From: Actinopolyspora lacussalsi
GTDB taxonomy: Bacteria; Actinomycetota; Actinomycetes; Mycobacteriales; Pseudonocardiaceae
Direction of reading: 5' to 3'
Assembly (NCBI GenBank): GCA_030803735.1
Contig: JAURUC010000001.1
Coordinates: 3,117,501-3,181,500 of the forward strand
Length of the DNA: 64,000 nt
Part shown: positions 19,753 to 35,454 of the stretch, piece after piece
Layout of the letters: each line of letters opens with the position of its first letter
Position numbering within the stretch: position 1 is the first letter of the stretch
Made by a program: the position numbers and the translations under genes
The notes under the pieces: model-generated
Seen by the model: only the letters and a program-made list of their open reading frames with translations
Told to the model about the DNA's origin: nothing
Database searches by the model: none

Positions 19753-20136
19753 TCAGCGCAACCCGGCGGCACGGAAGATCCGGTCGTAGATCTCGCGGAC
19801 GACGCGCTCCTTGCGGACGTTGTAGTCCATGACGTGCCCGCCGCCGGGGATCGCGGCTCGTTTCGCGGCCTCGTAACGGGCGCGGTCCTCCGGGTGTTGG
19901 CGCAGCCAGTCGCGGAACATGCGCTGCCGGACTGTCTCGGGGCAGTCCGGGCCGAACACGTGCAGGTTCACGCGCGGATTCGACAGCCGCAGGCACCGGT
20001 GCTCGTGGAAGGAGGGCTGCCGGGCCGTGCGGACGTGGCCCAGCTCCGCCAGCGCGGGGACGTACGCTCGCTCGTCCCGTGGGTCGGCCACGGTGAGGTT
20101 GATGTCGACGAGGTCCTTCGCCGCGAGCCCCGCCAC
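19753..20136 (-). pseudogene. GrpB-family protein, N-terminally truncated
   Basis: The frame runs MAGLAAKDLVDINLTVADPR to the C terminus with the GrpB/UPF0157 pattern FHEHRCLRLSNPRVNLHVFG and FRDWLRQHPEDRARYEAAK. The sequence upstream in the same frame still codes GrpB-like residues (GEVSLGIGHVGSTAVAG), but no ATG, GTG or TTG is available between an in-frame TGA near 20236 and the GTG at 20136. About 50 N-terminal residues (the DPAW segment in full-length relatives) are missing, so the gene is probably broken. Confidence 0.6.
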
Positions 20137-20397
20137 CGCCGTGGAGCCGACGTGCCCGATGCCGAGCGATACCTCGCCGAGAGCCGCGACGATGTCGGCG
20201 GCGTTTCCGGCTCGATCTCCGACACCGAGCCGGGCATTTCACTACACTGCGAGCAACCACGACAACCAGCCGTGTCGCGACGCACCCTCGAATCCGGTCT
20301 CGAACTATTCCACCACTCGAAACGACTGTCGGAGACAGCGACGGTTCCGTAGTCCTCCGTGATGAGCGGCAGCGCAGAGTTGGCCGAGGAGCCCTGT

Positions 20398-21633
20398 ATG
20401 ACCACACCAGACACCACGATCACCGTCGGCAGCCCGGAGTTCCTCGCCGACCCGCACGCGCACTACGCGTGGCTGCGTACGAACGCCCCGGTCCACAGAG
20501 GACGGATGGCCTACATGGGCGAACAGGACGTGTGGCTGGTCTCCCGGTACGAGGATTGCCGTCTGATGCTGGCCGATGACCGGTTCCTGCGTTCTCCGGG
20601 AGGGCAGGTCCCGGCGATGCTCGCGGGGTTTCCGGACTCGGTCCGCGAACCGATACGACTGATGACGACCAGCAACATGATCCTGATGGACGACCCGGGG
20701 CATCGACGCCTGCGCAAGCTGGTTGCCAAACCCTTCACCCCCCGGGCGATCGAGCGCATCAGCGGGCGAGTCGACGAACTGTCGCACGGGCTGCTCGACG
20801 AGCTGGAACCCCTTGGTCGAGTCGAGCTGCGCGAGCGGTTCGCGCTGCCCGTCCCCGCTACGGTGATCAACGAGATGGTCGGAGTGCCGCACGTCGACCG
20901 GGAGCGCTTCGGTCGGGGGATGAATGCCCTCGTGACGGGCATGGCGCGGCTCGGCCAGGAGAGTTGGGCCCGGGAGATGAACGCCCTGACCGAGCTCGTG
21001 CGCGAGCTGATCGAGCACAAGCGATCCGAACCCGGCGAGGACATCCTGACCGGTCTGATCCAGGCCGAGGAGGACGGGGAGCGCCTCTCCGAAGACGAAC
21101 TGGTCGCGATGGTCTTTCTGCTGGTCACCGCGGGTTACGAGACCACATACAATCTGATCACCAACGCGGTGCTCACGCTGTTGGATCACCCCGACCAGCT
21201 CGCGCGGCTGCGCGCCGCACCCGACGACGAGGCGCTGTGGTGGAGCGCGGTGGAGGAACTCGTGCGCTACGGCGGGCCGATCGGCGGAACCAAACCATCC
21301 ACCACAGTCGAGGACGTCACCTGGCACGACACGACGATCCCGGCCGGTGCGACGGTGATTCCCGTGTTGGCCGCGGCCAACCGGGATCCCGCCGCGTTCG
21401 ACGACCCGGACACCTTCGACATCGACCGCCGCCCCAACGCCCACCTCGGATTCGGCCACGGAGTGCACTTCTGCCTCGGCGCCAACCTGGCCCGCATGGA
21501 AACCCGCGTCGCACTGCGAGCCCTCGTACGACGCAACCCGAACCTGCGGCTGGCAGTCGACCGCTCCGAACTCGCGCTCGAACCGATGCCGTTCTGGACA
21601 CGCTACGAGGAGCTGCCCGTTCACCTCGGCTGA
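20398..21633 (+). CDS. Cytochrome P450
   Basis: 411 aa soluble bacterial P450. Heme-thiolate motif FGHGVHFCLGANLARME (about residue 350-366), I-helix VTAGYETTYN for oxygen activation, K-helix EELVR (ExxR). Bacterial class I, so it needs a ferredoxin and ferredoxin reductase, neither of which is next to it. The substrate is unknown; similar CYP107/CYP105-type enzymes act on macrolides, steroids or fatty acids. ATG 20398 has GAGGAG nine bases upstream. Confidence 0.95.
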   Translation: MTTPDTTITVGSPEFLADPHAHYAWLRTNAPVHRGRMAYMGEQDVWLVSRYEDCRLMLADDRFLRSPGGQVPAMLAGFPDSVREPIRLMTTSNMILMDDPGHRRLRKLVAKPFTPRAIERISGRVDELSHGLLDELEPLGRVELRERFALPVPATVINEMVGVPHVDRERFGRGMNALVTGMARLGQESWAREMNALTELVRELIEHKRSEPGEDILTGLIQAEEDGERLSEDELVAMVFLLVTAGYETTYNLITNAVLTLLDHPDQLARLRAAPDDEALWWSAVEELVRYGGPIGGTKPSTTVEDVTWHDTTIPAGATVIPVLAAANRDPAAFDDPDTFDIDRRPNAHLGFGHGVHFCLGANLARMETRVALRALVRRNPNLRLAVDRSELALEPMPFWTRYEELPVHLG

Positions 21634-21703
21634 CACTCGGAAACAGCGACTGGCGCGGACTCCACTACCGGCGCGGCGCGGTAGCGGGCACGACGTCGGC
21701 GCG

Positions 21704-22120
21704 CTACGCCTCGATCCCCCGGTAGGTGCCGAATGTCCACAGGTTGCCCTCCGGGTCCCGCACCATGAGCGCGTACGAACCGGCTCCCGAGCCGAACTCG
21801 GTGTGGTGCGGCGCCTCGACGACGTCGCCCCCTGCCTCCTTCACTCGGAAGTGGACGGCGTCCACCTCCTCGGTGGCGATGTAGACGGCGCTGCTTCCGG
21901 CTCGCATCCGGCCGTGCACACCGTCGGTGTGCTTCGTCGATCCGAAGACCAGCGCACCACCGCCGGGCCAGCGCAGCTCGGCGTGCACGATGTCGCCCTC
22001 CTCGTCCGGCACCGCGAGCACCTCGTGGAAGCCCAGGACATCGACGAGGAAGCGCAGCGCGGCACGCGTGTCGTCGTAGTGCAGGATCGGCCAGACCGAG
22101 GACGCCGAGCTGTCAGTCAT
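21704..22120 (-). CDS. VOC/glyoxalase-like protein
   Basis: 138 aa. One VOC repeat pair: PILHYDDTRAALRFLVDVLG and AVYIATEEVDAVHFRVKEAG, ending with YALMVRDPEGNLWTFGTY. The metal-ligand positions H and E are present, so it may be an active VOC enzyme or a resistance protein of unknown target. ATG 22120. It is the last gene before the tRNA-fragment boundary and sits just outside the genomic island. Confidence 0.85.
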   Translation of the reverse strand: MTDSSASSVWPILHYDDTRAALRFLVDVLGFHEVLAVPDEEGDIVHAELRWPGGGALVFGSTKHTDGVHGRMRAGSSAVYIATEEVDAVHFRVKEAGGDVVEAPHHTEFGSGAGSYALMVRDPEGNLWTFGTYRGIEA

Positions 22121-22209
22121 GGCCCCAACATAGCGGTGTCTCCGGGTCTGGCACACGCAAACGGTGCCGCCGCATCCGGTGAGGGCCGTGCTCGCTGGTC
22201 GTTCCGTGC

Positions 22210-22250
22210 GGCCAGGGGCGGGGTCGAACCGCCGACCTTCCGCTTTTCAG
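22210..22250 (-). repeat. tRNA-Phe 3'-half remnant, left boundary of island
   Basis: 41 bases identical to 31941-31981, the part of the tRNA-Phe gene running from the anticodon loop to the 3' end. The 30 bases to the left (22180-22209) are also closely similar to the sequence downstream of the intact tRNA, including half of its terminator, so the duplication is about 70 bases. This is the expected product of tyrosine-integrase insertion into a tRNA 3' end. Confidence 0.8.
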
Positions 22251-22453
22251 ATCACGAATACCGGGTTCAGCGAGGACCGTCGCAGTCCTCCAACGCAGAT
22301 CAGCGGCAATGCCGGAACATCGGGGGACAGTGTGAACGGGAGCGAACTGAGCCCCGAGCTGAGGCCTTCCTGGTGGTTCCACCATTGATTTGGCTACTCG
22401 CAAGAGCGAGCTTAATCGGGATCAGTGCCATCTTCAATGACTGCTATTACTTC
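22251..22453. other. Island left end, no supported gene
   Basis: Contains the unmatched right side of the att remnant (ATCACGAATACCGGG onward). No integrase remnant was seen on either strand. Confidence 0.5.
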
Positions 22454-24142
22454 CTACTCGCGAACGATTTCACCCCACCGCTCTCCACTACCGTCCTCGA
22501 AATAAAACTCTCGTATTACCCAACCAGTAGGCCATGCGGATTCAAAATAAGAATCGTAATCGAGTCGTGCATACGTCTCGCTGAACTCAACATTATTTTG
22601 CAATTTTTCCTTGACTGGATCAATTGATTTATCGTTTTTATCCCTACCAAAAAGAGCGGCGCCATGGAACCAACCAAGAGCAAAATTAGCCGACCCCAAG
22701 AAAAAAGCCTCCACAAAATCTGCATCACGATAAAACCGAGACTCAACAAAACCTGCGTTTTTATAAAACTGCGCAAACGTAAACATGGACTGCCCGAAAA
22801 ATTTTGCACTATCAAACACAGCTACATCGTAAAATCGTGTAGCAACAAATGCAGCCGAGGAGTCAAATTGCACCTCTTCAAAGGAAGCAGATCCATCGAA
22901 ATGTGTTGCGACAAATTCCGCCTCGTCATGAAATCGAGCACCCGAAAAAGTGGCCGCTCCATCCAGTTTCGCTCTTGAAAAATCGGCACTTCCATAGAAA
23001 TTGGCACTTGCAAATTCAACACGAGACACCTGGCAGTAACTGAAATCCCAATCAAACAGTGCGGCATCTGCGAGATTGACGATCATCCCCTCCCAAAATT
23101 CACCGTTGGCACGTTCCCCTTCTTTTCTTAGCTGGGGATGTAAATGATGCACCAACAATCGTTGAGCAGTAAGGCGGACCTGCAACTCCTGCCGCTGGTA
23201 ATCGTCATCGGTGAGCTGACTACCCGCCGCCGCCAAAGTAGGCGCGAGCGTGAGCAACGTGGCCAATGGTGAAGAGCCCTGCCGAACTCGTTCGGGACTA
23301 CGCAGCCCCAATCGCCTGGCCTGTCCGCTTTCTTGTTGAGAGCTGGTCTCTTCGACATCGGGCGGGGTGTAGGGCATCCGCAGATACGCGCAGAACAGAT
23401 TCACGATCGTCTGCCGATGATCCGGATTGTTCTGGCCCAGCCGGGACAGGGCATACAGCCCGGCCATGCGCACCGGCGCGTTCTCGGACGCCAACTGCTG
23501 CGCGGCAGCGGTGTAGAGCTCGGTGACGCGCCGCTCGTCGGCGTCATGCTTGGCCTGCTCCGCCTTGCGCTCCTGCAACCGCTGCGCCTGTTCCTGCTGG
23601 ATCACCCCCAGCTCGGTCGCGCGCTGCTTACGAGCGGCCAACACCAGCGCCGCCGCCCCACCGGTCCCCACCGCGATACTGCCCGCCAGCTTGATCGCGT
23701 CCAACCGGACCCTGTCCTGCTCGCTACCGCTACCGAAAGCCGACACCAGCAGCACGGCGGCAGCAGCCCCCACCGTCACCAGGACAGCCAATCCCACCCA
23801 GATCGCCCACCCCGGAATCGGCCGCACCGGCGCACCGGACAGTTCGGAAGCGTTGTCCGCCGGATTGCGCTGCCGAAGCCGGGTCCGTAGACGGGAGGCA
23901 GCGAGCGCGATCAATAGGATCCCGCTGACCAGAGTGATTAGTCCGGGCAGGCGGAACAGTCCCGAGGAGGTCAGGGTTCCCACCGCGTGCGCGAGCAACC
24001 CCAGCGCGTTCACCGGAGTCCAAGACAGTATCCCGGCGGCGAACACCACGGCAATGCCGACGATCGTCCAGCTCGACCCTCGAAGCCGATCGATCCCGCG
24101 CCGTGCGCGCACGATTCGGCTTTCCTCCGTCTGCCCAGCCAC
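22454..24142 (-). CDS. Membrane-anchored pentapeptide-repeat protein
   Basis: 562 aa. The N-terminal half has four hydrophobic segments (SWTIVGIAVVFAAGILSW, LPGLITLVSGILLIALAA, IPGWAIWVGLAVLVTVGAAA, and one near 165-185), then a helical/coiled stretch rich in Q and E. The C-terminal part is a pentapeptide-repeat solenoid of the form A(D/N)F with F/L at every fifth position (ASANFYGSADFSRAKLDGAA). The base composition of the solenoid is much more A/T-rich than the neighbours, a sign of transfer. Pentapeptide solenoids can mimic DNA or act as scaffolds; the function here is unknown. It sits at the left end of the island. Confidence 0.82.
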   Translation of the reverse strand: MAGQTEESRIVRARRGIDRLRGSSWTIVGIAVVFAAGILSWTPVNALGLLAHAVGTLTSSGLFRLPGLITLVSGILLIALAASRLRTRLRQRNPADNASELSGAPVRPIPGWAIWVGLAVLVTVGAAAAVLLVSAFGSGSEQDRVRLDAIKLAGSIAVGTGGAAALVLAARKQRATELGVIQQEQAQRLQERKAEQAKHDADERRVTELYTAAAQQLASENAPVRMAGLYALSRLGQNNPDHRQTIVNLFCAYLRMPYTPPDVEETSSQQESGQARRLGLRSPERVRQGSSPLATLLTLAPTLAAAGSQLTDDDYQRQELQVRLTAQRLLVHHLHPQLRKEGERANGEFWEGMIVNLADAALFDWDFSYCQVSRVEFASANFYGSADFSRAKLDGAATFSGARFHDEAEFVATHFDGSASFEEVQFDSSAAFVATRFYDVAVFDSAKFFGQSMFTFAQFYKNAGFVESRFYRDADFVEAFFLGSANFALGWFHGAALFGRDKNDKSIDPVKEKLQNNVEFSETYARLDYDSYFESAWPTGWVIREFYFEDGSGERWGEIVRE

Positions 24143-24401
24143 CCCATGATAATCGCAGAAGCGATCACACTGCTGGGCCAGTAAGCGGGATCGCCTCCGA
24201 TTCGGTCAGCGTGACAGGGCACCACAGCCGGATCAGAACGCGCTGAATCAGTCTCGATGCCGTGGTGGGTAGGTGGCGTTCGCGGTCGTTCTACTGGTGG
24301 CAGGACTGCCGACAGTGACAGTCAACCTTCTCGCGTCAGTTTCTTCTCTCCGCCGGCTGCGTCGTCGCTACGACGATGTTCGTGACCAGTCAGCTCACCA
24401 G

Positions 24402-24734
24402 TCACAACTTATCCACCAGGTTCGCAGCCTCCACGAGCGGCACCTCCGGGATATCCCGACGCACTTGACGAACGGCCCGCACTTTTCCTTCGTTGTCACG
24501 CAGTTCTCGAATTTTCTCACGATCCAGAGACCGAGCCACATCATCCGACGTCGGAAATCTATCGCGGAATTCGGCGTGAATTTTTCGGCGACGAACCGAG
24601 GAAACAACGGATCCCACTACTGTCCACGCCAGCAGGACGCACCCGGCAATAAGATAATTTCCCGACACGGCGAGAAAAATACTTCCCAGCAGTACAATGA
24701 GGCCAACTATCCACATGACCATGACATGTAGCAT
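24402..24734 (-). CDS. Small membrane protein with bL12-like C-terminal domain
   Basis: 110 aa. Two hydrophobic segments at the N terminus (MWIVGLIVLLGSIFLAVSG, YLIAGCVLLAWTVVGSVVSS), then a charged linker and a C-terminal segment GKVRAVRQVRRDIPEVPLVE that resembles the helix of the ribosomal bL12 C-terminal domain. Proteins with a membrane anchor plus a bL12-like tail occur in actinobacteria, function unknown. ATG 24734; another in-frame ATG lies at 24722. It is upstream of the pentapeptide gene, same strand. Confidence 0.65.
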   Translation of the reverse strand: MLHVMVMWIVGLIVLLGSIFLAVSGNYLIAGCVLLAWTVVGSVVSSVRRRKIHAEFRDRFPTSDDVARSLDREKIRELRDNEGKVRAVRQVRRDIPEVPLVEAANLVDKL

Positions 24735-24765
24735 GAAATCACCTAATCATTCAATGTGAATCTCG

Positions 24766-24948
24766 CTACCACTGTCCAACCGGGTGATTCACGAGAAACA
24801 GCGCGTTCGAACGCTCGCGTATGACCGAGCCGGGAGGAACCGTGGAGACGACAGGGCCACCGTGATAAAGACGCAGCCACACCGCGTCAACTCCAGCCTG
24901 CCATGAAACCACGACGAACCCGTCCGAACACCTCGACGAGGCGAACAA
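24766..24948 (-). CDS. Small unknown protein, 60 aa
   Basis: TTG start one base after the TGA of the 392-aa gene, so translation would be coupled (CTGAATTG). Sequence has a beta-rich look (FVVVSWQAGVDAVWLRLYHG). No family recognised. Confidence 0.45.
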   Translation of the reverse strand: MFASSRCSDGFVVVSWQAGVDAVWLRLYHGGPVVSTVPPGSVIRERSNALFLVNHPVGQW

Positions 24949-24949
24949 T

Positions 24950-26128
24950 TCAGTTCCGGTCGAGCAATGCCCTTCGGTGCTGCCAGGCCAGGTTCATCGC
25001 GGCCGAGGCTCCGGGCGAGAGTTGGCCCAGTTCGTGAAGACGGCTGATGGTGTTGGCCTCGAACGGCAGGTGCCGGGCGGGAATGCGGCCCTCGTCGTTG
25101 GTGGTGACGGCCGCACCGAACAGCTCGTCGTAGGTGTCGGGCTCGATCACCGCCACGGTGAGGATGTCGCCGGACAGCGTGAGCGCGTCGAGCGTGACGC
25201 CGAGGTAGTAGACCCGAATCCGCCCCTCGCCACGAGCGCGATCCATCCCCGCGAACGGTTCGCGGTTCTCGTAGTCGATCGGCCTGCCGCTGCCGTCGTA
25301 CTCGACGTGCCCGAGTAGCTCCTCGGCGAACTCGCGTTGCATGTTCCGCCAGATCGAGAAGTCGTTCTGCACGGCTTCGGGGATGACGCTCGACGGCTGG
25401 AAGATGCCCGCGGGCAGCAGGTGCGCCATCCCGCCGCCACCGGCCACGCGGCCGCCGTCCCGCTGGTGCAGCACCATGCTCGGGCTCTCCCCCGCCCGAA
25501 TCGTCAACGTGCCGATCGCGCCCATCAAGGGCCGCTGGGAGAGGTCGAACGGATCACCGACGTGCTTGCGGAAGGTCAGCCGCCGCCACGACGCACGACC
25601 GACACCGAGCTCGCCGTGCCGGTCGCGAACGAGATGATGTGCGGCCATCTCGTGCGCCAGGGCTTCGTTCGTGTCGATCGAGTCGAAAAACCCCATCGTG
25701 CCAAACTGCAACCGCAGGTTCGGTTGCGAGCGATCGAGAGCGGTCAGGCGGAAGCACAGGCGGTTCTCGAACAGGCGTGGCGCGGCCAGGTCCCGCACCG
25801 CGTGGCTGTAGCGGTGGTAGCGCTGCTCGGCCGACGCCAGGGGGCGTACGCCCGCGCTCTGCCGCTCCGAACCATCGACAGCCGGAACCGCGGAGTCGTC
25901 CGTGTCGAGTTCGAGCCCCAGCTCCGACAACGGCACCGGGACGCTCGGGAGCCAATCCGTTCCGGCAATCACGCCGCTCCCTTCGGAGCCCGGCACCGTC
26001 GAATCCGGATAGAGCCGCTCGGCTTCGACGGCCAACCCCCGCCGGAACGTGCCCAGCACCGCGCGAGTGTCCTTCCACTCCTGTTGATCCTTGTCCACGC
26101 GCGGATCGACCGTAACTCTGATGCCCAC
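24950..26128 (-). CDS. Large island protein with a Nudix-box-like segment
   Basis: 392 aa, unknown function. A Nudix-like segment is visible at about residues 265-275: MQREFAEELLG matches the REUXEEXGU half of the Nudix box, but the preceding G-x5-E part has a longer insertion, so hydrolase activity is uncertain. Other features: HLLPAGIFQPSS, and DTYDELFGAAV. No membrane segment. GTG 26128 is the preferred start, as the frame upstream lacks family-like residues; ATG-less. It is in the same direction as, and likely co-transcribed with, the XRE/TPR regulator. Confidence 0.55.
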   Translation of the reverse strand: MGIRVTVDPRVDKDQQEWKDTRAVLGTFRRGLAVEAERLYPDSTVPGSEGSGVIAGTDWLPSVPVPLSELGLELDTDDSAVPAVDGSERQSAGVRPLASAEQRYHRYSHAVRDLAAPRLFENRLCFRLTALDRSQPNLRLQFGTMGFFDSIDTNEALAHEMAAHHLVRDRHGELGVGRASWRRLTFRKHVGDPFDLSQRPLMGAIGTLTIRAGESPSMVLHQRDGGRVAGGGGMAHLLPAGIFQPSSVIPEAVQNDFSIWRNMQREFAEELLGHVEYDGSGRPIDYENREPFAGMDRARGEGRIRVYYLGVTLDALTLSGDILTVAVIEPDTYDELFGAAVTTNDEGRIPARHLPFEANTISRLHELGQLSPGASAAMNLAWQHRRALLDRN

Positions 26129-26266
26129 ACGCCCATGATCGCAACGCAGACATGCTCGATGGGTCAATCAGCGGAAGCAACCCTCTACTCCTGTGGACAC
26201 AGTTCGACACCACCACCGGAACCACCACGGAACCGCTGGGAACAGCGAAAAAGAGGTCCAGCAACC

Positions 26267-27490
26267 TCACTGGCGAAGGTCGCGGAGTTGTTCCAGGTAA
26301 GACTCGGTTTCTTCCTCTCCCGCGTACTGACTGTTCAGTACTTGCGCCAGATCTTGAGAGACCATCGCCAGCGATGGCAGTGATTTACGGTCGCCTGTGA
26401 TGGCTCGGCGGCCGTACGTGACAGCGCTCTCAAGGTCACCTTCACGAGCAGCTACTACGCCGAGCGTGATCTGCGCTTCGGCTATCCGCATCGGCCAGCG
26501 TTCGTAGCCGTTGAAGTCGGTACTCGCCCGGATCACTTCGTCGGAAAGCTCTCGCGCAAGCCGACTCTCTCCGATGTGACGGTAGCAGTCCATCACGTAG
26601 AAATCATACTTGGAAGGGTCAACCACGAAATGATTGTCCACGTTTTCAGGATAAGGCATTCCTTCAAGAAGAACGCGCCCTTTTTCCAAGGCGTTTTGCA
26701 TTTCGTTCTTCTTGCCCATGCGCGCCCACGCCTTGGCTTCCTGAGCGATGATCTGTACGGCGACACTGTGACTCCCTGAAGCCTCACGCCCTGCTTCAGT
26801 AGCCGCTACCACTCCCCGATAGTAACCCGATGTCAGCGCGAACCAGGCACGCATTTCGTGAGCCCATCCGACGATTCCCGGGTTCCCCACCTCTTGGCCG
26901 AGACTCAGAGCAGAACGCCGTGTTGCCTCCGCCGACCGCTGGTCACCAAGATCGTATTCGAGACAGCCAACCAGGAGCGTAAGCCATCCGGCGAGTTCAA
27001 GCGTCTCCCGCCGCTGGCGAAAGCTGAGGCGCTGTTCTTGCATCTCGACCAAGCGTCGAAGCCACTGACGGCTTTCGAAGATCAACCCTTGCGCCGGAAG
27101 CCGCGAATAGTCGGAGCAGAGCTTGTCAACGGTGATACGAACGGCTTCAAGAGTCGCATCGTTCACGTCTGAGGCTTGGAGACGACCAACGATTTCAAGC
27201 GTGTTCATCCCCGTGGCGTTCAACAACTCCAGATCGTTGTTCGTTCGCTCCGGCGGAAACAGCGAATCGCTCACCGTTCCGAGGGTCGATGCGATGATCT
27301 TCGTGTAGAAATCGCTGGGCTTGTTCTCCCCCAGCTCCCATGACTTCCACCGCCGCAATAGATGGGTAGCGTCCGGCAGTTGCTTCTCCGAGTGGTGTCG
27401 CATGTTCTCGGCGGCTTCCGCCTGTGACCATCCGCGGGCCTCACGCATCGATCGGATACGACGCGCCCACGTCGGTAGATCCTTACCCAT
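26267..27490 (-). CDS. XRE/TPR transcriptional regulator of the island
   Basis: 407 aa. Cro/CI-type helix-turn-helix at residues 5-45 (WARRIRSMREARGWSQAEAA) followed by a long TPR-like helical domain typical of BldR-like and AICE regulators (GWLTLLVGCLEYDLGDQRSA, ALSLGQEVGNPGIVGWAHEM, LAREL and ALEKG repeats). Start ATG 27490 with GGAGG eight bases upstream. A perfect palindrome and a second half-site lie in its promoter region (27541-27583), indicating autoregulation. It is likely the master switch of the island; effector unknown. Confidence 0.85.
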   Translation of the reverse strand: MGKDLPTWARRIRSMREARGWSQAEAAENMRHHSEKQLPDATHLLRRWKSWELGENKPSDFYTKIIASTLGTVSDSLFPPERTNNDLELLNATGMNTLEIVGRLQASDVNDATLEAVRITVDKLCSDYSRLPAQGLIFESRQWLRRLVEMQEQRLSFRQRRETLELAGWLTLLVGCLEYDLGDQRSAEATRRSALSLGQEVGNPGIVGWAHEMRAWFALTSGYYRGVVAATEAGREASGSHSVAVQIIAQEAKAWARMGKKNEMQNALEKGRVLLEGMPYPENVDNHFVVDPSKYDFYVMDCYRHIGESRLARELSDEVIRASTDFNGYERWPMRIAEAQITLGVVAAREGDLESAVTYGRRAITGDRKSLPSLAMVSQDLAQVLNSQYAGEEETESYLEQLRDLRQ

Positions 27491-27540
27491 GCTGCCTCCA
27501 ACTCGTTGCCCCCTCGAACACCAGTGTGGCACCGAAAAGA

Positions 27541-27583
27541 GGTGATACGAGAGATGTGAAGTAGGTGATACGCCCGTATCACC
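27541..27583. promoter_or_regulatory. Operators of the XRE/TPR regulator
   Basis: A perfect 20-bp palindrome GGTGATACG-CC-CGTATCACC at 27564-27583 and a half-site GGTGATACG at 27541-27549, 23 bases apart (two helical turns). They lie between the XRE gene start and the divergent small genes, so both directions could be controlled. Confidence 0.75.
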
Positions 27584-27668
27584 GCACCACCCAGGCAACA
27601 CCAACAACGACACTATGAACCGAGTCTCATGGTGATCAGTGTTGGAGACATGGCCACGAGAACGGAAA

Positions 27669-27905
27669 TCAGTACGGTCCTGGAGACTCCTGAACCAGCG
27701 AAGACACCTGCTCGCTGGACATCTCCGCAGGAAGGTTCTCGAACGCCTGGGAGCCGTCGAGAACTTCGGCGGGAACAAAGAGGAGATCCGCCTCCCCTCC
27801 CGGTGAACTTGCCCGCTCGACCGGATGGCTGTGCACCCAGGAGCCCTCACCGTGGGCACTCACGATCAGTATCTCTTCGCGGAGCACTTTCAGGGAGCTC
27901 TGCAC
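27669..27905 (-). CDS. Possible small protein, 78 aa
   Basis: Codon use is good on the minus strand, but start GTG 27905 has no clear ribosome binding site and the other strand has a frame that also looks coding. It does not match a known family. Confidence 0.3.
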   Translation of the reverse strand: MQSSLKVLREEILIVSAHGEGSWVHSHPVERASSPGGEADLLFVPAEVLDGSQAFENLPAEMSSEQVSSLVQESPGPY

Positions 27906-27970
27906 GGGACCGGCCGAAAGCGAAGTTGGCGCACCGGCCGGGGCGGGACATCGAAGTATTGGAACTCTCG

Positions 27971-28228
27971 ATGCGAGAGCAGCCTATCGGAATGTCGCGG
28001 GTCGAGGCAGTAACCGAACGATTCGACGTCTCGGTGCACACGACCTGTCGAGCTACCGATTCCGGCGATCTGCGGACCTTGAGGATCGGTACCGGTAAGG
28101 GCACGTCGGGAAGTCCCGAGTCGACTCTTGCCACCTACGAAGACCCCTGTGAACAGGCCACGCACGAGATGTACATGACCGGCGACGCCTCCGCGGTCGA
28201 GGAAGACATCCCGGGAGAGGTGATCTGA
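27971..28228 (+). CDS. Small protein of the island operon, 85 aa
   Basis: GC-ending codons throughout; the sequence contains IEVLELSMREQPIGMSRVEA upstream and EQATHEMYMTGDASAVEEDI near its end. ATG 27971; the stop is two bases before the next gene. The coding signal may extend further upstream and be interrupted there by a frameshift. No family recognised. Confidence 0.5.
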   Translation: MREQPIGMSRVEAVTERFDVSVHTTCRATDSGDLRTLRIGTGKGTSGSPESTLATYEDPCEQATHEMYMTGDASAVEEDIPGEVI

Positions 28229-28230
28229 TC

Positions 28231-28632
28231 ATGCTCACTCCCACAGTCACCGCCACCGGTGAAATCGGCACTTCCGGCCCCGTGGAGTTCATCCCGACAC
28301 TGCGTGAGGACGCCGAACAACCGGCCACAGTGAACCTGTCGATGCGACTGGAAATCAGCCTCGAAGACGCCACGGCCGCACTGTGGCTCGCCCTACGCGA
28401 CGGACTCGAACTCTCCGCACTGGACGACGAATACCTCGTCCACGAGATGGTGCTGGAAAAGCTACTCGCCGAAGGCGGAAACGCCATAGCCGCCGCTCGC
28501 GACGAGATGAACCAGCAGAAACCCGGCACGCACGAAGCCCGTACCACCCAGGCACTGCGCACGATCACCACCCGGCTCTACGGCACCGCCGGCAAGTCCG
28601 GGGCGACTGGAACAGCTCAGGAGGGACTATGA
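28231..28632 (+). CDS. Hypothetical protein of the island operon, 133 aa
   Basis: High GC3; helical in the middle (LEISLEDATAALWLALRDGL, EYLVHEMVLEKLLAEGGNAI). No membrane segment or motif. Its stop overlaps the start of the GNAT gene by ATGA, so translation is coupled. Part of an operon 27971-28231-28629-29088. Confidence 0.65.
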   Translation: MLTPTVTATGEIGTSGPVEFIPTLREDAEQPATVNLSMRLEISLEDATAALWLALRDGLELSALDDEYLVHEMVLEKLLAEGGNAIAAARDEMNQQKPGTHEARTTQALRTITTRLYGTAGKSGATGTAQEGL

Positions 28633-29119
28633 ATTCGATCGAGATCATCGATGGCACGCGAACCCATGTCGATGCCGCGGCCCAAGTCTGGACCATCGCC
28701 ACCCGCGACGGCGACGCGACACCCCCTCCCCCTGGAAGAAGCGCGGCCACTCATCCAACAGGTCGTCGGGGCGCCGGGGGCACCCTGCTCGTAGCGAGCA
28801 CGACCACCGAAACGGTCGGATTCCTCGCCGCCAAACCACGAGGCAACGGCTGTCCGAGCGACGAAGCCGAGGTTCGCTATCTGGGCGTCGCTCCGCACGT
28901 TTGGGGCGAGCGCATCGGCAGTCGACTCGCCCAGGCACTGCCCGAACATCTGGGGCCAGAGGATTCACCCGAGCACCGCTCACGGCCTACACCGACAACG
29001 AACCGGCCGCCCGGTTGAGCACCTATCCCCACTCGCCCGACCGGGCGGCATTTACCCACTTCCATTTGGTTCGTAAGGAAGCGACCGATGCTTTACGAAG
29101 TGAGTGTCCAGCAACGTGA
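28629..29119 (+). pseudogene. Frameshifted GNAT acetyltransferase
   Basis: The open frame from 28629 starts like a GNAT (MNSIEIIDGTRTHVDAAAQ), then three single-base shifts are needed to keep GNAT similarity: an extra C in the C-runs at 28722-28732, a missing G at 28776-28780, and a missing G at 28952-28955. With them corrected the order reads LEEARPLIQQVVGAP, GTLLVASTTTETVGFLAAKP, LGVAPHVWGERIGSRLAQAL, then GFTRAPLTAYTDNEPAARLS, i.e. the whole GNAT fold. All three lie in homopolymer runs, so a sequencing or assembly error is as possible as real decay. Confidence 0.6.
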
Positions 29120-29593
29120 AATCAGCGACACCACGACCGTGCTCACGATCATGTTCGACCAGTACCGCCGGTCACATCACGCCTACACAGCTGAGGAAAT
29201 CGCTACTCTTCTCGACCACGTGGTCACCTCACCGAATCCACCGAGGGAAACCGCACCACGCTGGTCACCGTGTGGGACCGACCGGCCCGCTCCCATCACG
29301 ACGACGGTCAACCCGAGTACCCACCCGCCTACCTCCGAGTCGCCGTCGATCCCGACACGGGTTGGGGCGCGATGACCTGGATCGACCTCACTGCGGGCGA
29401 AGTGCTCGACACCTTCGACCCGGCCGGGCCGGACGACCGTCCCGCCCTGGTGTTCGCCGCCGACGAGCCCAGCTACCTCCCCAACTCCGCGTCCCTGCCG
29501 CTCGAACGGATACACCACGCCCTGTACGAATACGCCGAGACCGGCACACGCCCCACCACCGTGCGGTGGCAGCAGGGATACCTCGTCCTCTGA
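29088..29593 (+). pseudogene. Imm1-like immunity protein gene with one frameshift
   Basis: Two frames join with a missing G near 29221-29224. The first (MLYEVSVQQREISDTTTVLT...) and the second (LTESTEGNRTTLVTVWDRPA, GAMTWIDLTAGEVLDTFDPA, ERIHHALYEYAETGTRPTTV) together look like an Imm1-type immunity protein that would bind a deaminase toxin. The frameshift lies in a short G run, so an error is possible. No toxin gene is recognised nearby. Confidence 0.55.
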
Positions 29594-29774
29594 AGATGAC
29601 TCCGTACTCGGAACACGCCGGATTTCAAATCGCGGTTCCGCTCGCCGGTGCCGCATCCGAGCGCGGTCCGAAGATCGTAAGGCGACCCCGAATCGCCGCG
29701 AAACGACACCAACAGCACGTCCCCGATGCCCTGGTCGAACGACCGCTTCTCGTCGCCCGGAGAACCGGGCAGCT

Positions 29775-30299
29775 CTAGCCAGCGGAACCGTCCACTTTGC
29801 GCCCGACGAACACCACGTCCTGAACCACGCCGCCACCCAGATCGGCCACGGCGGGCAACCGACCCCACTCCTGGAAGCCGTGCGAGCGGAACAGGCGCAG
29901 ACTGGCCCGGTTGCTGCCGAAGATCGTGGTGGCCAGCGTGCGCACGCCGAGCTTCGGAGCATGGGCCACGGCCTCACCCAGCAGGTAAGTTCCCTGCCCC
30001 CGACCACGGTGCTCGGGATGCAGGTACAGCGCCACGTCCGAGGTCACGTCGTATCCCGGCCGACCGTTCAGAAAGGGGTCGAAGCTCAGATAGCCGGTCA
30101 CGGCACGCGGCTCGTCCGCCTCGTAGCCGACCCAGATCGGGCGAAAATCCGGCCCCGAGGACTCGAACCACCCCTCGCGGGAAGCGACGCTGACGGATTC
30201 CAGGTCGCAGGTGCTCGCCTTCTCCAGGATCGCGGCGTTGTAGATGTCCACAATAGCGGGCAGATCCGCACGCGTGGCGAGACGATGGCGGTACCCCAA
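29775..30299 (-). CDS. GNAT acetyltransferase (phosphinothricin-acetyltransferase-like)
   Basis: 174 aa. Full GNAT fold: RLATRADLPAIVDIYNAAIL, VALYLHPEHRGRGQGTYLLG (acetyl-CoA motif Q/RxxGxG) and a FGSNRASLRLFRSHGFQEWG C-terminal part, all similar to Pat/Bar-type enzymes that acetylate small amines. Substrate not certain. Start TTG 30299 with AAGGGAG upstream is preferred because upstream codons are not family-like. Confidence 0.75.
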   Translation of the reverse strand: MGYRHRLATRADLPAIVDIYNAAILEKASTCDLESVSVASREGWFESSGPDFRPIWVGYEADEPRAVTGYLSFDPFLNGRPGYDVTSDVALYLHPEHRGRGQGTYLLGEAVAHAPKLGVRTLATTIFGSNRASLRLFRSHGFQEWGRLPAVADLGGGVVQDVVFVGRKVDGSAG

Positions 30300-30450
30300 G
30301 AGATCGCTCCCTTCCCGGTTCTGCTGCCCGCACCGAGGCAAACATGGTCGTTACGGCTCCGGAGAGTACGAGCGGTGCGAGTCGATATCCAGGACATCGC
30401 GGAAAGTCGACCGTACTTTTCACCGCGCGACCATTACTGCTGCTTTCCCG

Positions 30451-31251
30451 TCAGCTCGGATCTTTGTGCGCCACGAGATGAAAGGCGCGACTGAGTTGAC
30501 GGTAGGGGTCTCGTCGACTGGCTTCGAGTTCGACCGCAACCGCCTTTGCCATCTCCCGCGAGTCGTTGGGATCCAGCTCGACTCCACTGAATTCCAACCA
30601 ATCGACGAACAGCCACACCCCGTACCAGCACAGTGGTTCCAAGCTGCGGTTCCGCACGAGCTCGCTGAGCTCCTCCACTGTGTCTGCTCGGCTCCGCACT
30701 CCCAGCACGTTCGTCTCGGTCCGGTCGTCGAACGCCGCCAGGGCGTCATCCCACCGACGTTCCAACGCGGGGCGTACCGCCATAGCCCCGGCGTTGCCGG
30801 TCATGATCGAAAGCACGCCGTCGGCGGCAGTGCACCGGCACAGCTGATCGACGAGCGGCTCCGGCCGCTCCAGGTATCCGAGTACGCCGTGGCACAACAC
30901 AGCGGCGAATCGTCCGCCGTTCACCGCCTCGTGCGCGCGCTCACCATCGGCCCGCACGAACGTCACCCGCCGCCGCTCCTGCTCGGTCAACCGCTCGAGT
31001 CGCTGCTCCGCCTTGTCCAACATCGCCTGCGAAGGCTCGAGCAACGTAACTTCGTAACCGGCTCGGACCAGCGGGAACGAGTGATGCCCCGCACCACCGC
31101 CGACGTCGAGAACCGTCGCCGGAGCCGGTGGTAGGTGATCCAGCAGTTGCTGATGCAGCACGTAACTACGCACGTAGCCCTTCGCCGAGGCGAAGGCATC
31201 TTCGGCATAGTGGTCGGCCAGGTCGGTGCCTTCCCACGTGTTCCCATCCAT
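30451..31251 (-). CDS. Class I SAM-dependent methyltransferase
   Basis: 266 aa. SAM motif I VLDVGGGAGHH at about residues 46-56, then motif II-like LLEPSQAMLDKAEQRL and FVRADGERAHE, and a helical C terminus. Similar to the CmoM/SmtA type (tRNA or small-molecule methyltransferases); the target is not shown. ATG 31251. Inside the island, near its right end. Confidence 0.85.
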   Translation of the reverse strand: MDGNTWEGTDLADHYAEDAFASAKGYVRSYVLHQQLLDHLPPAPATVLDVGGGAGHHSFPLVRAGYEVTLLEPSQAMLDKAEQRLERLTEQERRRVTFVRADGERAHEAVNGGRFAAVLCHGVLGYLERPEPLVDQLCRCTAADGVLSIMTGNAGAMAVRPALERRWDDALAAFDDRTETNVLGVRSRADTVEELSELVRNRSLEPLCWYGVWLFVDWLEFSGVELDPNDSREMAKAVAVELEASRRDPYRQLSRAFHLVAHKDPS

Positions 31252-31410
31252 CGCCCCACGGTATCCAGTTTGTAACCAGCAACTTAGCGGCTATGGCTGC
31301 GCGAATCGGGGGCCGCACGGTGCGTCGATCGAGGAGATCACACATGAGCTGGGGATTCCGAAGCAACCGCACTTCCAGACAAACGCTGGTCCTCATGGTT
31401 GCCTGGCGTT

Positions 31411-31812
31411 GTGCGTCTTGAGCAGCTGACTCTGATCATCGACGACTACGACGAGGCGATCCGGTTCTTCCTGGACGCACTGGAGTTCGAGCTCGTCGAG
31501 GATTCGCCGTCCTTGACCAACGACGGGCGCGAGAAGCGGTGGGTCGTCGTACGACCGCCCGGCGTCGCCACGGGCCTACTGCTCGCACGAGCTGACGGTG
31601 AGCGGCAGGAGCGAGTGGTGGGCGAACAGTTCGCGGCTCGGGTCGGCCTGTTCCTGCGCGTCGACGACTTCCAGGAGTCCTACGCCCGGATGCGCGCGGC
31701 GGGGGTCGAGTTCGTCACCGAGCCGCGCCGGGAACCCTACGGCGATGTCGCGGTCTTCCTCGACATCGCGGGCAACCGCTGGGACTTGCTTGGCCCACGA
31801 CCGTCTCAGTGA
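31411..31812 (+). CDS. VOC/glyoxalase-like protein
   Basis: 133 aa. VOC modules RLEQLTLIIDDYDEAIRFFL and GLFLRVDDFQESYARMRAAG with the terminal DIAGNRWDLLGPR. The start is GTG 31411 (TTG 31399 is also in frame). Last gene before the tRNA-Phe terminator. Confidence 0.75.
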   Translation: MRLEQLTLIIDDYDEAIRFFLDALEFELVEDSPSLTNDGREKRWVVVRPPGVATGLLLARADGERQERVVGEQFAARVGLFLRVDDFQESYARMRAAGVEFVTEPRREPYGDVAVFLDIAGNRWDLLGPRPSQ

Positions 31813-31886
31813 TCACCCCCACAGCGAGGCGGGGCCGGAAGCCACCGGACCAACAACCGAGACCGGAACTGAGACTAACCACGCAC

Positions 31887-31924
31887 GAGAACGGCCCCCA
31901 CCGTTCCCGGTGGGGGCCGTTCTC
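31887..31924 (-). terminator. Rho-independent-type terminator of tRNA operon
   Basis: Perfect 16-bp stem: GAGAACGGCCCCCACC (31887-31902), loop GTTCCC, GGTGGGGGCCGTTCTC (31909-31924). It lies 16 bases downstream of tRNA-Phe on the minus strand. Half of this hairpin is also found at the left island boundary. Confidence 0.8.
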
Positions 31925-31939
31925 GCTGGTCGTTCCGCG

Positions 31940-32013
31940 TGGCCAGGGGCGGGGTCGAACCGCCGACCTTCCGCTTTTCAGGCGGACGCTCGTACCAACT
32001 GAGCTACCTGGCC
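31940..32013 (-). tRNA. tRNA-Phe (GAA)
   Basis: Cloverleaf with acceptor stem GGCCAGG/CCTGGCC, D-arm GCTCAGTTGGTACGAGC, anticodon loop CTGAAAA (anticodon GAA), T-arm GGCGGTTCGACCCCGCC. The 3' CCA is not encoded. It is the attachment site of the island; its 3' end lies on the island side. Confidence 0.95.
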
Positions 32014-32041
32014 GTGCAACCCGGCTCATGGCCGATCGCGC

Positions 32042-32118
32042 TGGCGACCCAGACGGGACTCGAACCCGCGACCTCCGCCGTGACAGGGCGGCGCGCTAAC
32101 CAACTGCGCCACTGGGCC
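32042..32118 (-). tRNA. tRNA-Asp (GTC)
   Basis: Acceptor stem GGCCCAG/CTGGGTC (one G-U pair), anticodon stem-loop CCGCCCTGTCACGGCGG with anticodon GTC, T-arm GCGGGTTCGAGTCCCGT. Discriminator G and an encoded CCA (32042-32044). Confidence 0.95.
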
Positions 32119-32130
32119 ATGTGTTGTTGT

Positions 32131-32148
32131 CACCGGACGAGTCCGGTG
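32131..32148 (-). other. Hairpin between tRNA genes
   Basis: CACCGGAC-GA-GTCCGGTG: perfect 8-bp arms, overlapping the CCA of tRNA-Glu; a processing or pause hairpin. Confidence 0.5.
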
Positions 32149-32222
32149 GTACCCCCAACGGGATTCGAACCCGCGTTACCGCCTTGAAAGGGCGGCGTCC
32201 TAGGCCTCTAGACGATGGGGGC
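32147..32222 (-). tRNA. tRNA-Glu (TTC)
   Basis: Acceptor GCCCCCA/TGGGGGT, anticodon loop CTTTCAA (anticodon TTC), T-arm GCGGGTTCGAATCCCGT, discriminator A with encoded CCA (32147-32149). First gene of the three-tRNA operon. Confidence 0.95.
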
Positions 32223-32579
32223 TTGGTCGACCAGATGCCTGCTCGGCCTTGCCTCCAACCGGCTTTCCGTTGTCGGATGCCCCGTTGGGAACGATTAAAA
32301 GCTTACGTCATGCCTTCGGAGAGTCGTAAACGGGGGGTCCCTATCGACACGAACCCTCCCCACGCGGCCGAGCGAACCCGGCCACCCACACCGACGTTAC
32401 ACCGTTGAGCTGCTGCTTCGACCGACGAAGCCACGACGTCCGACACGCCGGGGCCACCCCGCACCAGTGCCGAACACCCCCATCGAGCCCCCGATCACCC
32501 ACCCGAGGTGATTTTGTGACGCCGGTCTCAACATCGACCGGAAATCGGACGTGCCGCTCCGCGGGGAATCCCGAACGGC
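32223..32579. other. tRNA-operon promoter region, no gene
   Basis: Only the upstream region of the tRNA operon (minus strand). AT-rich around 32293-32310. No coding frame supported. Confidence 0.5.
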
Positions 32580-33185
32580 TCAGCGAGCCTTCCGGTTGCT
32601 CAACCACTCGGGACTGGCGGCCCCCTGCAAGGTGATCCGCCAGGTCTCCTCCATACGCACGGCAGTCCCCGGCCCCGCCCCGGGACCGAGCACCCGCGCA
32701 CCGACCAGCCCGGCGTAGGCGACGCGGGCGACCGCCTCCGGATCCACTCCGGGCCGCAGCATCCCGCCCGCCGAGGCCCTGCGGAGCAGATCGAGCAGCA
32801 GAGCTTCCCAGTCCGGCTCGGAGTCGATGTCCTCGCCCTCGGCGATCCGGTGCCGAGCGAGCCCCGTCCCGGCGCGGAGCACGACGTCGTGCTCGAGCAG
32901 CCGCGCCGCCTCGTTGAGCATCCCCACCGCGATCGACAGCGGGTCGAGCTCGCGCCGCAGCCAGTCGCCACGCACTCTGGGCCAGCGCCGCGCCTGCGAT
33001 TCGACGAGCGCCAGGGCCAGCTCCTCCTTGGAGGCGAAGTGGAAGTAGAACGCCCCCTTGGTGATTCCGCCGCGACGCAGGATCGCGCTCAACGGGGTGG
33101 CGTCATAACCCGTTCTGTCGAACTCCTCGGCTGCCGCGACCACGATCGCGTGACGAGTCAGTTGGGCACGACGTTGCTGAGGCAT
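32580..33185 (-). CDS. TetR family regulator, ScbR/ArpA (gamma-butyrolactone receptor)-like
   Basis: 201 aa. TetR helix-turn-helix RGGITKGAFYFHFASKEELA (about residues 40-59), which is the typical ScbR/CprB-type signature, with a helical ligand-binding domain downstream. Butyrolactone receptors repress antibiotic and differentiation genes until the signal binds. No AfsA-type synthase is in the window, so this receptor is orphan here. Start ATG 33185; a CAACT-N5-AGTTG inverted repeat lies upstream at 33273-33287. Confidence 0.82.
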   Translation of the reverse strand: MPQQRRAQLTRHAIVVAAAEEFDRTGYDATPLSAILRRGGITKGAFYFHFASKEELALALVESQARRWPRVRGDWLRRELDPLSIAVGMLNEAARLLEHDVVLRAGTGLARHRIAEGEDIDSEPDWEALLLDLLRRASAGGMLRPGVDPEAVARVAYAGLVGARVLGPGAGPGTAVRMEETWRITLQGAASPEWLSNRKAR

Positions 33186-33272
33186 GTGTACGCGGCTCCA
33201 ACGGGTGCCGGCGGACGAACAGTCAGCACGCTCAGTAACAGAGCGAACAGCTGCCACCCACGAACGGATGAT

Positions 33273-33287
33273 CAACTTTACGAGTTG
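33273..33287. promoter_or_regulatory. Possible operator of ScbR-like regulator
   Basis: CAACT-TTACG-AGTTG, perfect 5-bp arms, 88 bases upstream of the regulator's ATG and in the intergenic gap. The half-site differs from the long ARE consensus, so this is a candidate only. Confidence 0.4.
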
Positions 33288-33434
33288 AAGTTACCGCGCG
33301 TGGGCAAATTTCATCCCATCGGCCCAACCCGCACCGAACCCGATGGCCGACCGAACGACAGGGGAGACCTGGTGAACACCCAAAAGAGACTCACGGGTAG
33401 GTTTTCGGTGTGGCCGCACGGCCGCCCGCCGATG

Positions 33435-33475
33435 CCCCGCGAGACGCTCCACCGGGGGGTGTGCGTCTCGCGGGG
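33435..33475 (-). terminator. Terminator hairpin of 79-aa gene
   Basis: CCCCGCGAGACGC (33435-33447) and GCGTCTCGCGGGG (33463-33475) form a perfect 13-bp stem with a 15-base loop, downstream of the minus-strand gene 33613-33852. Confidence 0.7.
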
Positions 33476-33612
33476 TCGGATTCACGAGAGCCCGGGGCAC
33501 GTTCGGCGTAATTCCGGGGAGAGAGCGGCGTGGTCTCCGCGCGCCAGGACGCGCGGGCCTCACCGGAACGAGCAGCGCGTTCCGGCCGTGTCCGAGTGGA
33601 TCAGCGCGGTGG

Positions 33613-33852
33613 TCAGTCCTCCCGCGCGGACTCCTCGTTGTCGTCGGTGAGTCCGAGCATCGCCAGCAGCATCCGGCAGTCCTCATGATTCCGCGCGCCA
33701 CGTGCGACCGCGAGACGCGCCCGGTGCAGCTGCTCGGGAGAGAGCCCGCCGGTGTCTCCGTCGCGCTGCGCCGGAACCGCGGCGGCCGCGGACCTGGGGG
33801 AAGCTCTGTCCTGCAACGCCAGGAACTTGCGTACGTCGAGTGACCCGTCCAT
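33613..33852 (-). CDS. Small hypothetical protein, 79 aa
   Basis: ATG 33852 with GGGAGGGG upstream. Helical, no motif (LSPEQLHRARLAVARGARNH). Followed by a strong terminator hairpin. Confidence 0.6.
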   Translation of the reverse strand: MDGSLDVRKFLALQDRASPRSAAAAVPAQRDGDTGGLSPEQLHRARLAVARGARNHEDCRMLLAMLGLTDDNEESARED

Positions 33853-34066
33853 AACCCCTCCCCGACTAGGGTGTCGCCGCAGGTTATCCACCCATCGGCT
33901 TCAAACATAGCCCCCTGCGGAGTGATTCGCGAACACGAAGAGTGTTTGCTATACAACCGAGGGGAAACACATCCGACACAACTCCGAACGCGCCCACCGG
34001 ATTCCCGATCGCGGACAGCGGCAATCCGAAACCGGACAACAGTGACCCGGCTCATCCCCGAGCACT

Positions 34067-34081
34067 TACCCCCCTGGGGTA
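34067..34081. promoter_or_regulatory. CsoR-type copper operator upstream of copZ
   Basis: TACCCC-CCT-GGGGTA, arms of 6 with 3 bases between. It resembles the pseudopalindromic GC-rich sites of CsoR repressors and lies 45 bases before the copZ start. Confidence 0.55.
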
Positions 34082-34125
34082 TTTTCGGGGTCGAGGACAA
34101 CGACACTCGCCACGAAGGAGCCGCG

Positions 34126-34344
34126 ATGTCCACGCAAACCTTCAAGGTCGCCGGAATGACCTGCCAGCACTGCGTCGCCTCGGTCCAGGAGGAGCTGGGG
34201 GAGCTGCCCGAGGTGACGAACGTCGAGGTCTCCCTGGACAGCGGGGACGTGACCGTCACCTCGGAGAACGGGATCAGCAAGGAGGCCGCCGACGCCGCCG
34301 TGCAGGAGGCCGGCTACACCGTGGCCGAGTGGTCCCGGACCTAA
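34126..34344 (+). CDS. copZ: Copper chaperone CopZ-like, heavy-metal-associated domain
   Basis: 72 aa, single HMA domain with GMTCQHC (MxCxxC variant MTCQHC) at about residue 10. It binds Cu(I) in the cytoplasm and hands it to a CopA ATPase. No copA or csoR is next to it. AAGGAG precedes the ATG, and a CsoR-type box lies upstream. Confidence 0.93.
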   Translation: MSTQTFKVAGMTCQHCVASVQEELGELPEVTNVEVSLDSGDVTVTSENGISKEAADAAVQEAGYTVAEWSRT

Positions 34345-34685
34345 CGGACAAAAACGAAAAACCCTCGCGACACTCCCCAACGGGCACCTCGGCGTGCCAC
34401 AATCGAATCGCTGACACACCCCCGGTCAGCAGCTGTGGAGATCGGCATTGCGTTGGCCCCCGCGCTCTTCCCCCGACGCGGGGGCCGACTCTTGGAATCC
34501 CTCCCCGGAGTCCTTCGCGGTGTTCGTTCGTCCCGCCGAGAACCGGCCCCACGAAAAAGCCGCCGAGGCCTCACGAACTCTCCACCAGCCGTGCGACGGG
34601 GCCCGTCGCTCCCCGATCGGCTCGGCACGCCGTGATCGCCCCCACATCCGCCGTCACTGCGGTGTGGAACCGTTATCGTGTCCGG
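34345..34685. other. Intergenic region, promoter of RHH gene
   Basis: Holds the TATCGT box (34674-34679) six bases before the GTG start of the ribbon-helix-helix gene. No other signal supported. Confidence 0.5.
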
Positions 34686-35276: not shown

Positions 35277-35454
35277 GTTCCGGACGGCAACCCCCGACAG
35301 CCGCTGCCGGCCCCGGACGCGAGCCGCCGTCCGGTCCCGCACGTCAGGTTCCGAACCGGCAACGGGGACCGCTGCGGGGGTTTTCGGCCGGGGCTTCCGG
35401 TACTGGACACGTCGAATCCACGTCCCCGCACGACCGCCCGCGGGCTCTCCCGCG

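Follow-up and report, generated by a model that had tools for sequence, protein, structure and literature searches.

How does a genomic island come to lie between two copies of a tRNA attachment core without any integrase that could have placed it there? The question is raised by positions 22210–31981 of the 64,000-nucleotide stretch of the Actinopolyspora lacussalsi chromosome analysed here (the window), an interval bounded by a tRNA-Phe gene and by a second copy of its 3' half. The first-pass annotation had taken it for one integrated element that lost, or never had, its integrase. Integration at the 3' end of tRNA-Phe is borne out by the repeat geometry and by empty sites in relatives, and the integrase is indeed missing, but the one-element form of the claim did not stand: a tandem composite without rep-xis-int fits better. 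Very probably, two or more mobile elements were stacked at the tRNA-Phe attachment (att) site, and the interval is their non-autonomous remnant.

Island boundaries and empty sites

The tRNA-Phe(GAA) gene, identified by ARAGORN, has tRNA-Asp and tRNA-Glu as neighbours and lies on the minus strand, and its 3' end therefore faces the island, as first proposed. The 41-nt exact repeat reported earlier was found again (22210–22250 equals 31941–31981); it is a piece of the tRNA-Phe gene, its 3' half, and chance is excluded. An ungapped similarity of 84 nt at 90% identity (22167–22250 against 31898–31981) takes in the tRNA terminator, and given this span and the position of the tRNA, the repeat comprises the tRNA 3' half together with its terminator. 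The earlier annotation had thus rightly seen an extension into the terminator, but its length is 43 nt and not about 30. The island has a GC content of 61.9% versus 67.6% for the window, with a minimum of 48% in the 3' part of a pentapeptide-repeat gene. Its boundary features are the following:

22167–22209, unstranded: decayed copy of the tRNA-Phe terminator (75-nt fold, −22.0 kcal/mol), read as the native terminator displaced by integration
22210–22250, unstranded: far att core, repeating the tRNA-Phe 3' half exactly (repeat search)
22251–22363, unstranded: left arm of the element, adjoining the far core (alignments to G008:C21 and G006)
31898–31940, unstranded: island-side tRNA-Phe terminator, a strong hairpin (−53.2 kcal/mol)
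31939–32013, minus strand: tRNA-Phe(GAA), with the near att core inside it at 31941–31981

Terminator, core and arm together (22167–22363) align with positions 1217–1021 of contig C21 of A. xinjiangensis (G008), at 85% over 197 bp, and a weaker match to the left arm (22252–22380, 73%) occurs in another Actinopolyspora genome (G006). The two terminator copies differ strongly in predicted stability: the far one folds like the background of random 75-mers from the island (mean −24.6 kcal/mol, sd 6.8, n=210), while the terminators at two empty sites reach −46.4 and −48.6 kcal/mol. We read the far copy as the native terminator, decayed after its displacement. The locus suggests that integration gives the tRNA a terminator as well as a 3' half, both new, while the displaced terminator decays.

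The site was compared across 10 Actinopolyspora genomes, one of which (G041) belongs to the same species as the window strain. There, window positions 19981–22250 (95.6%) and 31883–35403 (97.9%) overlap on one tRNA-Phe within one continuous stretch, and neither of two island proteins searched for, P405 and a 133-aa protein (both described below), was matched. A second genome (G003) has the same layout, its left flank joined to its sole tRNA-Phe, and in both genomes the core occurs once genome-wide at up to 3 mismatches. The empty site that the first reading had predicted, one tRNA-Phe with joined flanks, is thus present in two relatives; with both being single-core, we saw neither cargo-less relatives carrying both core copies nor gene order conserved in all genomes. 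Several island genes are present in A. mzabensis (G004), A. alba (G007) and A. xinjiangensis. Two further genomes hold only passenger genes beside the tRNA, together with a 90-bp piece of 28501–28590 in G001 and a 127-bp piece at 29006–29132 in G002, and in G006 short left-arm pieces remain next to the tRNA, with a pentapeptide relative some 12 kb off. No island genes were found in the stretch fetched from G005, whose tRNA-Phe site may be empty too.

Origins of the left and right parts

The left part of the island, from 22251 to near 29006, corresponds to the left half of Pseudonocardiaceae elements of the AICE (actinomycete integrative and conjugative element) type. The matching components are the left arm and the following:

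26267–27490, minus strand: XRE/TPR regulator, 407 aa (NCBIfam NF053720, NsdA family)
27564–27583, unstranded: predicted operator GGTGATAC-N4-GTATCACC, a perfect palindrome upstream of the XRE/TPR gene
27629–28228, plus strand: HTH_17-like element protein, homologous in its C-terminal 88 residues (56% over 79 aa to an HTH_17 protein of A. xinjiangensis)
28231–28632, plus strand: 133-aa element protein, dubbed DUF133 (61% to a gene of the A. xinjiangensis element)

The XRE repressor is 77% identical to that of a contig of another genome of the family (G060:C27) and 74% identical to that of pCM32 from Saccharopolyspora endophytica YIM 61095 (NZ_KM260754.1, 14.6 kb), both of which also carry an integrase, an HTH_17 gene and the operator. 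The palindrome is kept at the corresponding place with 1 change in the former and 2 changes in the latter, and has a unique match at up to 1 mismatch in the 10 genus genomes; next to the 50%-identical XRE gene of G252 (L151), no copy was found. The operator of the regulator, already recognised in the first-pass annotation, is thereby supported. The G060 contig (L128) is 9.28 kb long, its ends overlap by a tRNA 3' piece, and it encodes HTH, 133-aa, HTH_17 and integrase genes; it looks like a circularly permuted complete integrative element. In the same genome, no integrase was detected in a tRNA-Phe island of 6.5 kb (L146).

An integrase-bearing element is found at the same site in A. xinjiangensis. 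Its gene for a 440-aa tyrosine integrase ends some 80 bp short of the tRNA-Phe core and follows genes for NUDIX, XRE, HTH_17, the 133-aa protein, AAA_25 (primase/helicase-like in PHROGs) and an excisionase-like HTH_17. The HTH and 133-aa proteins of the window are 56% and 61% identical to its gene products. The window HTH_17-like protein has no Pfam match of its own (its counterpart has an HTH_17 match), and matches only this upstream HTH gene, not the excisionase-like one adjoining the integrase. Of 150 family genomes, 12 encode the 133-aa protein, the window genome among them, and 9 of the 12 are outside the genus; in eight of these nine, a relative of the A. xinjiangensis integrase lies within about 5 kb of each copy, and in the ninth (G165) none was found at E ≤ 1e-60.

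Beyond the left part lies a passenger block, parts of which adjoin the same tRNA in relatives: the glyoxalase gene in G001, and the methyltransferase gene with part of the GNAT gene in G002. In the window, the GNAT ORF at the junction and the block read as follows:

28629–29018, plus strand: GNAT acetyltransferase ORF, open, apparently damaged (partial Pfam match, profile positions 30–87 of 116)
29088–29593, plus strand: Imm1-family immunity gene, split over two frames (PF14430, E 2e-12 on 29270–29593)
29775–30341, minus strand: GNAT acetyltransferase (Pfam)
30451–31251, minus strand: SAM methyltransferase (Pfam)
31399–31812, plus strand: glyoxalase-fold protein (Pfam)

The ATG of the first of these ORFs overlaps the stop of the 133-aa gene (28629–28632). 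Its DNA is 91% identical to A. xinjiangensis C21 and its protein only 46%, with GNAT-like pieces, read by eye, spread over different frames, and the gene looks damaged. Imm1, whose frame is intact in A. alba, is broken in the window as judged by its reading frames.

Two relatives suggest how both parts came together. On contig C21 of A. xinjiangensis, which also carries the chromosomal left flank, the passenger genes are followed by an intact core, a left arm like window 22251–22363, and repeats shared with the integrase contig C16; the integrase element thus seems to lie between the passenger block and the tRNA. In A. mzabensis, a decayed internal att consisting of terminator and core (L034:6803–6872, E 1.4e-19, 70 nt at 86%, 12 of 41 core columns changed) separates the 133-aa gene from the Imm1 block and immediately precedes the counterpart of window 29007. 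Because of this contig order and this internal att, the island is best read as far core, AICE left part, deletion, passenger block and core/tRNA, with the junction falling between 28632 and about 29007.

An att-bounded passenger block would already have occupied tRNA-Phe when an AICE with a pSE211-type tyrosine integrase inserted next to it, each arrival handing the tRNA a new 3' end and terminator, and a later deletion, internal att included, would have removed rep-xis-int. Left without an integrase, the island would be inherited vertically; the XRE protein probably still represses the divergent HTH/133-aa transcript via the predicted palindrome, with no excision machinery left to control. 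Different strains of the genus display different states of element stacking and decay at one tRNA gene: the site empty, an element with its integrase, the remnant of an internal att, and the stranded composite.

Several observations weigh against this history. The deletion step is reconstructed and was not directly observed, and the A. xinjiangensis contigs C21 and C16 are unjoined in the assembly, their adjacency being deduced from shared repeats and flanks. The XRE protein of that element has no recognisable relationship to the window XRE, which is nearest to elements with another att, apparently tRNA-Ser as judged by eye, while the 133-aa and HTH proteins are nearest to a tRNA-Phe element; the left part is therefore itself a mosaic. 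In A. alba and A. mzabensis the cargo adjoins the left flank without a far core, and A. alba is continuous with window 29126–35340 at 97% identity, so that the history was not one simple gain. To this add the 90-bp piece of 28501–28590 retained in G001, and the far terminator, which departs from four compared copies in 12–15 of 59 columns where the flank divergence (4%) would suggest less.

Mobility functions, rival explanations and cargo

Of the 75 ORFs of at least 60 aa overlapping 22210–31981, 71 were scanned with Pfam (E ≤ 0.01), the other four spanning the island ends, and none showed an integrase, recombinase/resolvase, relaxase, translocase or replication domain. The nearest of the 11 PF00589 matches in the genome (G000:C1:3204401) lies to the right of the island at a distance of about 55 kb, and the scan and this genome search together agree with the absence of a visible integrase claimed at the outset. 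By membership the island is not an AICE: integrase, replication and transfer genes were tested for and not found. A cognate integrase elsewhere in the genome was also considered. Ten stretches covering all 11 PF00589 matches were searched with the integrase profile and yielded seven integrase-like ORFs, none of them close to the A. xinjiangensis clade; the best shares 39% identity with an integrase from a different type of tRNA-Phe island (L145). Another possible element relic, a short integrase frame of 214 aa, adjoins a tRNA-Lys about 55 kb away from the island (L172, G000:C1:3203500–3206500).

How unusual is such an island? When 297 family genomes were searched for the core pattern, allowing up to 3 mismatches and with a second listing for 28 genomes, at least 44 were seen to have multiple copies on the same strand. 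Copies shared a contig in 38 genomes, giving 40 intervals, and the 6 genomes with copies on different contigs were excluded. A profile built from 30 integrases, used in the other islands without a search for serine integrases, detected a whole or fragmentary tyrosine integrase in 32 of the 40 intervals and none in 8; among intervals longer than 4 kb, 4 of 34 had none. The eight comprise the window island and those of G241, G217 and G060 (6–10 kb), together with four of 0.45–1.8 kb. Islands without integrase at tRNA-Phe are therefore a minority, yet not rare.

In the integrase search itself, 14 of 30 loci had a tRNA-Phe core beside the gene or within about 0.8 kb. One genome (G093; L125, L126) has, next to a tRNA-Thr, an integrase 83% identical to the tRNA-Phe one, its element recurring on small contigs with 7.8-kb spacing as from a tandem array or a high-copy circle; integrase similarity alone is therefore insufficient to fix the target. 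The tRNA-Phe islands L130–L166 display at least three integrase layouts in the family: that of the A. xinjiangensis clade, that of a group with about 26% identity, and one with the integrase at the opposite island end, reading away from the tRNA.

The best surviving alternative, which we consider improbable, is that the interval is an integrase-less AICE satellite or CIME-like element (for CIMEs, cis-mobilisable elements, see below), excised and moved in trans or as a tandem by an incoming tRNA-Phe-specific AICE. Besides its perfect cores, such a satellite would have kept an att that includes the terminator, and an undamaged repressor gene with its operator. The alternative would account for cores identical over 41 nt beside a decayed far terminator (0 of 41 against 14 of 59 differences between near and far copy, Fisher p 0.0003), for the A. 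xinjiangensis element that apparently stands beside the same passenger genes with its integrase, and for the three other islands longer than 4 kb with two cores and no detected integrase. The core contrast loses much of its force in a control of 35 spans drawn from the 40 intervals (window counted, four two-locus intervals excluded, two of L150 merged), a set biased by selection on core similarity and mostly integrase-bearing: 30 of the 35 have no core difference and the other five have one, with terminators mostly diverged. Unchanged cores beside diverged terminators are thus usual in the family, and core identity in the window is weak evidence and therefore not proof of continuing mobility. 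Moreover, the window genome has no match to the A. xinjiangensis integrase at E ≤ 1e-60, none of its seven integrase-like ORFs exceeds 39% identity to any integrase from a tRNA-Phe island, the Imm1 gene is broken, and A. mzabensis and A. alba have lost the far core. If this alternative were true, a satellite carried in trans would be an actinobacterial counterpart of CIMEs.

A single element with a decayed integrase and otherwise original gene order would explain the two clean boundaries and the one continuous interval, but is very unlikely given the internal att remnant in A. mzabensis and the passenger genes beside the tRNA in G001 and G002, where the fetched stretches held no match to P405, XRE or most of the 133-aa protein.

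Between the left arm and the regulator, three further genes form the cargo:

22454–24142, minus strand: pentapeptide-repeat protein, 562 aa (Pfam PF13576, E 3e-17)
24402–24734, minus strand: probable membrane protein, 110 aa (also in G004, G007 and G008)
24950–26113, minus strand: P405, about 387 aa, without known family (ORF open to 26167)

A relative of the pentapeptide protein (31%) lies about 0.5 kb from the far core of another island (L158). P405 is matched in 69 of 150 family genomes, its own counted (E ≤ 0.001), and by no Pfam family. In three tRNA-Phe islands that have an integrase (L129, L141, L148), relatives of P405 lie 0.6–2.1 kb from the far core, a position that suggests a left-end cargo slot. 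We had supposed, by analogy to Pif of pSAM2, that P405 might be a Nudix-like immunity factor, and dropped the idea: there is a partial Nudix motif only, no Pfam match, one PDB match at E 1.1, and a useless structure model (mean pLDDT 31.7); at 5 of 26 loci, window counted, the neighbours include XRE, most loci extending only 1.5 kb past the gene. Nor was the suggestion of a defence module supported; PADLOC, run on 10 proteins, returned a sole match, that of the methyltransferase to part of mads_2 (E 7e-16, residues 276–416 of a 492-residue model), which we do not accept as a sign of a defence system.

Comparison with known systems

Set beside recognised classes, the island shares with AICEs its insertion at the 3' end of a tRNA, marked by direct repeats, and an XRE-type control region, which we take to be KorSA-like; it lacks a detected site-specific integrase, a replication initiator or Prim-Pol, and a DNA translocase of the FtsK/TraB type. 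Known defence-system genes, the mark of an anti-phage defence island, were not found among the proteins given to PADLOC.

pCM32, which we take to be an AICE, resembles the window in its XRE, in the operator at the corresponding place, and in an HTH protein (49% over 59 aa) beyond the operator. It differs in having Prim-Pol, HTH_17 and integrase genes and its own tRNA-like att of another kind, apparently Ser as judged by eye, and it gave no match to the window 133-aa protein at E ≤ 1e-3. The element of A. xinjiangensis DSM 46732 (G008:C16) has the same attachment site, left arm, and HTH and 133-aa genes, but also a complete rep-xis-int, a different XRE gene, and a NUDIX gene where the window has P405. 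With what we take to be pSE211-type AICEs at tRNA-Phe, the window shares the core and the tRNA 3' end facing the island and differs in having no detected integrase, replication or transfer domain; a 17.2-kb tRNA-Phe island of the family (G020) carries an integrase 68% identical to that of A. xinjiangensis.

An anatomical parallel is offered by CIMEs, the cis-mobilisable, att-flanked elements of streptococci. Like them, the island has two att cores and no integrase or transfer genes, shows signs of tandem accretion with related elements, and shares its att with an integrative element of the species group, the integrase-bearing element of A. xinjiangensis at the same site; unlike in CIMEs, mobilisation is only a possibility here. 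The island is thus CIME-like in anatomy, and clearly exemplifies a phenomenon already known; it does not represent a novel type of system.

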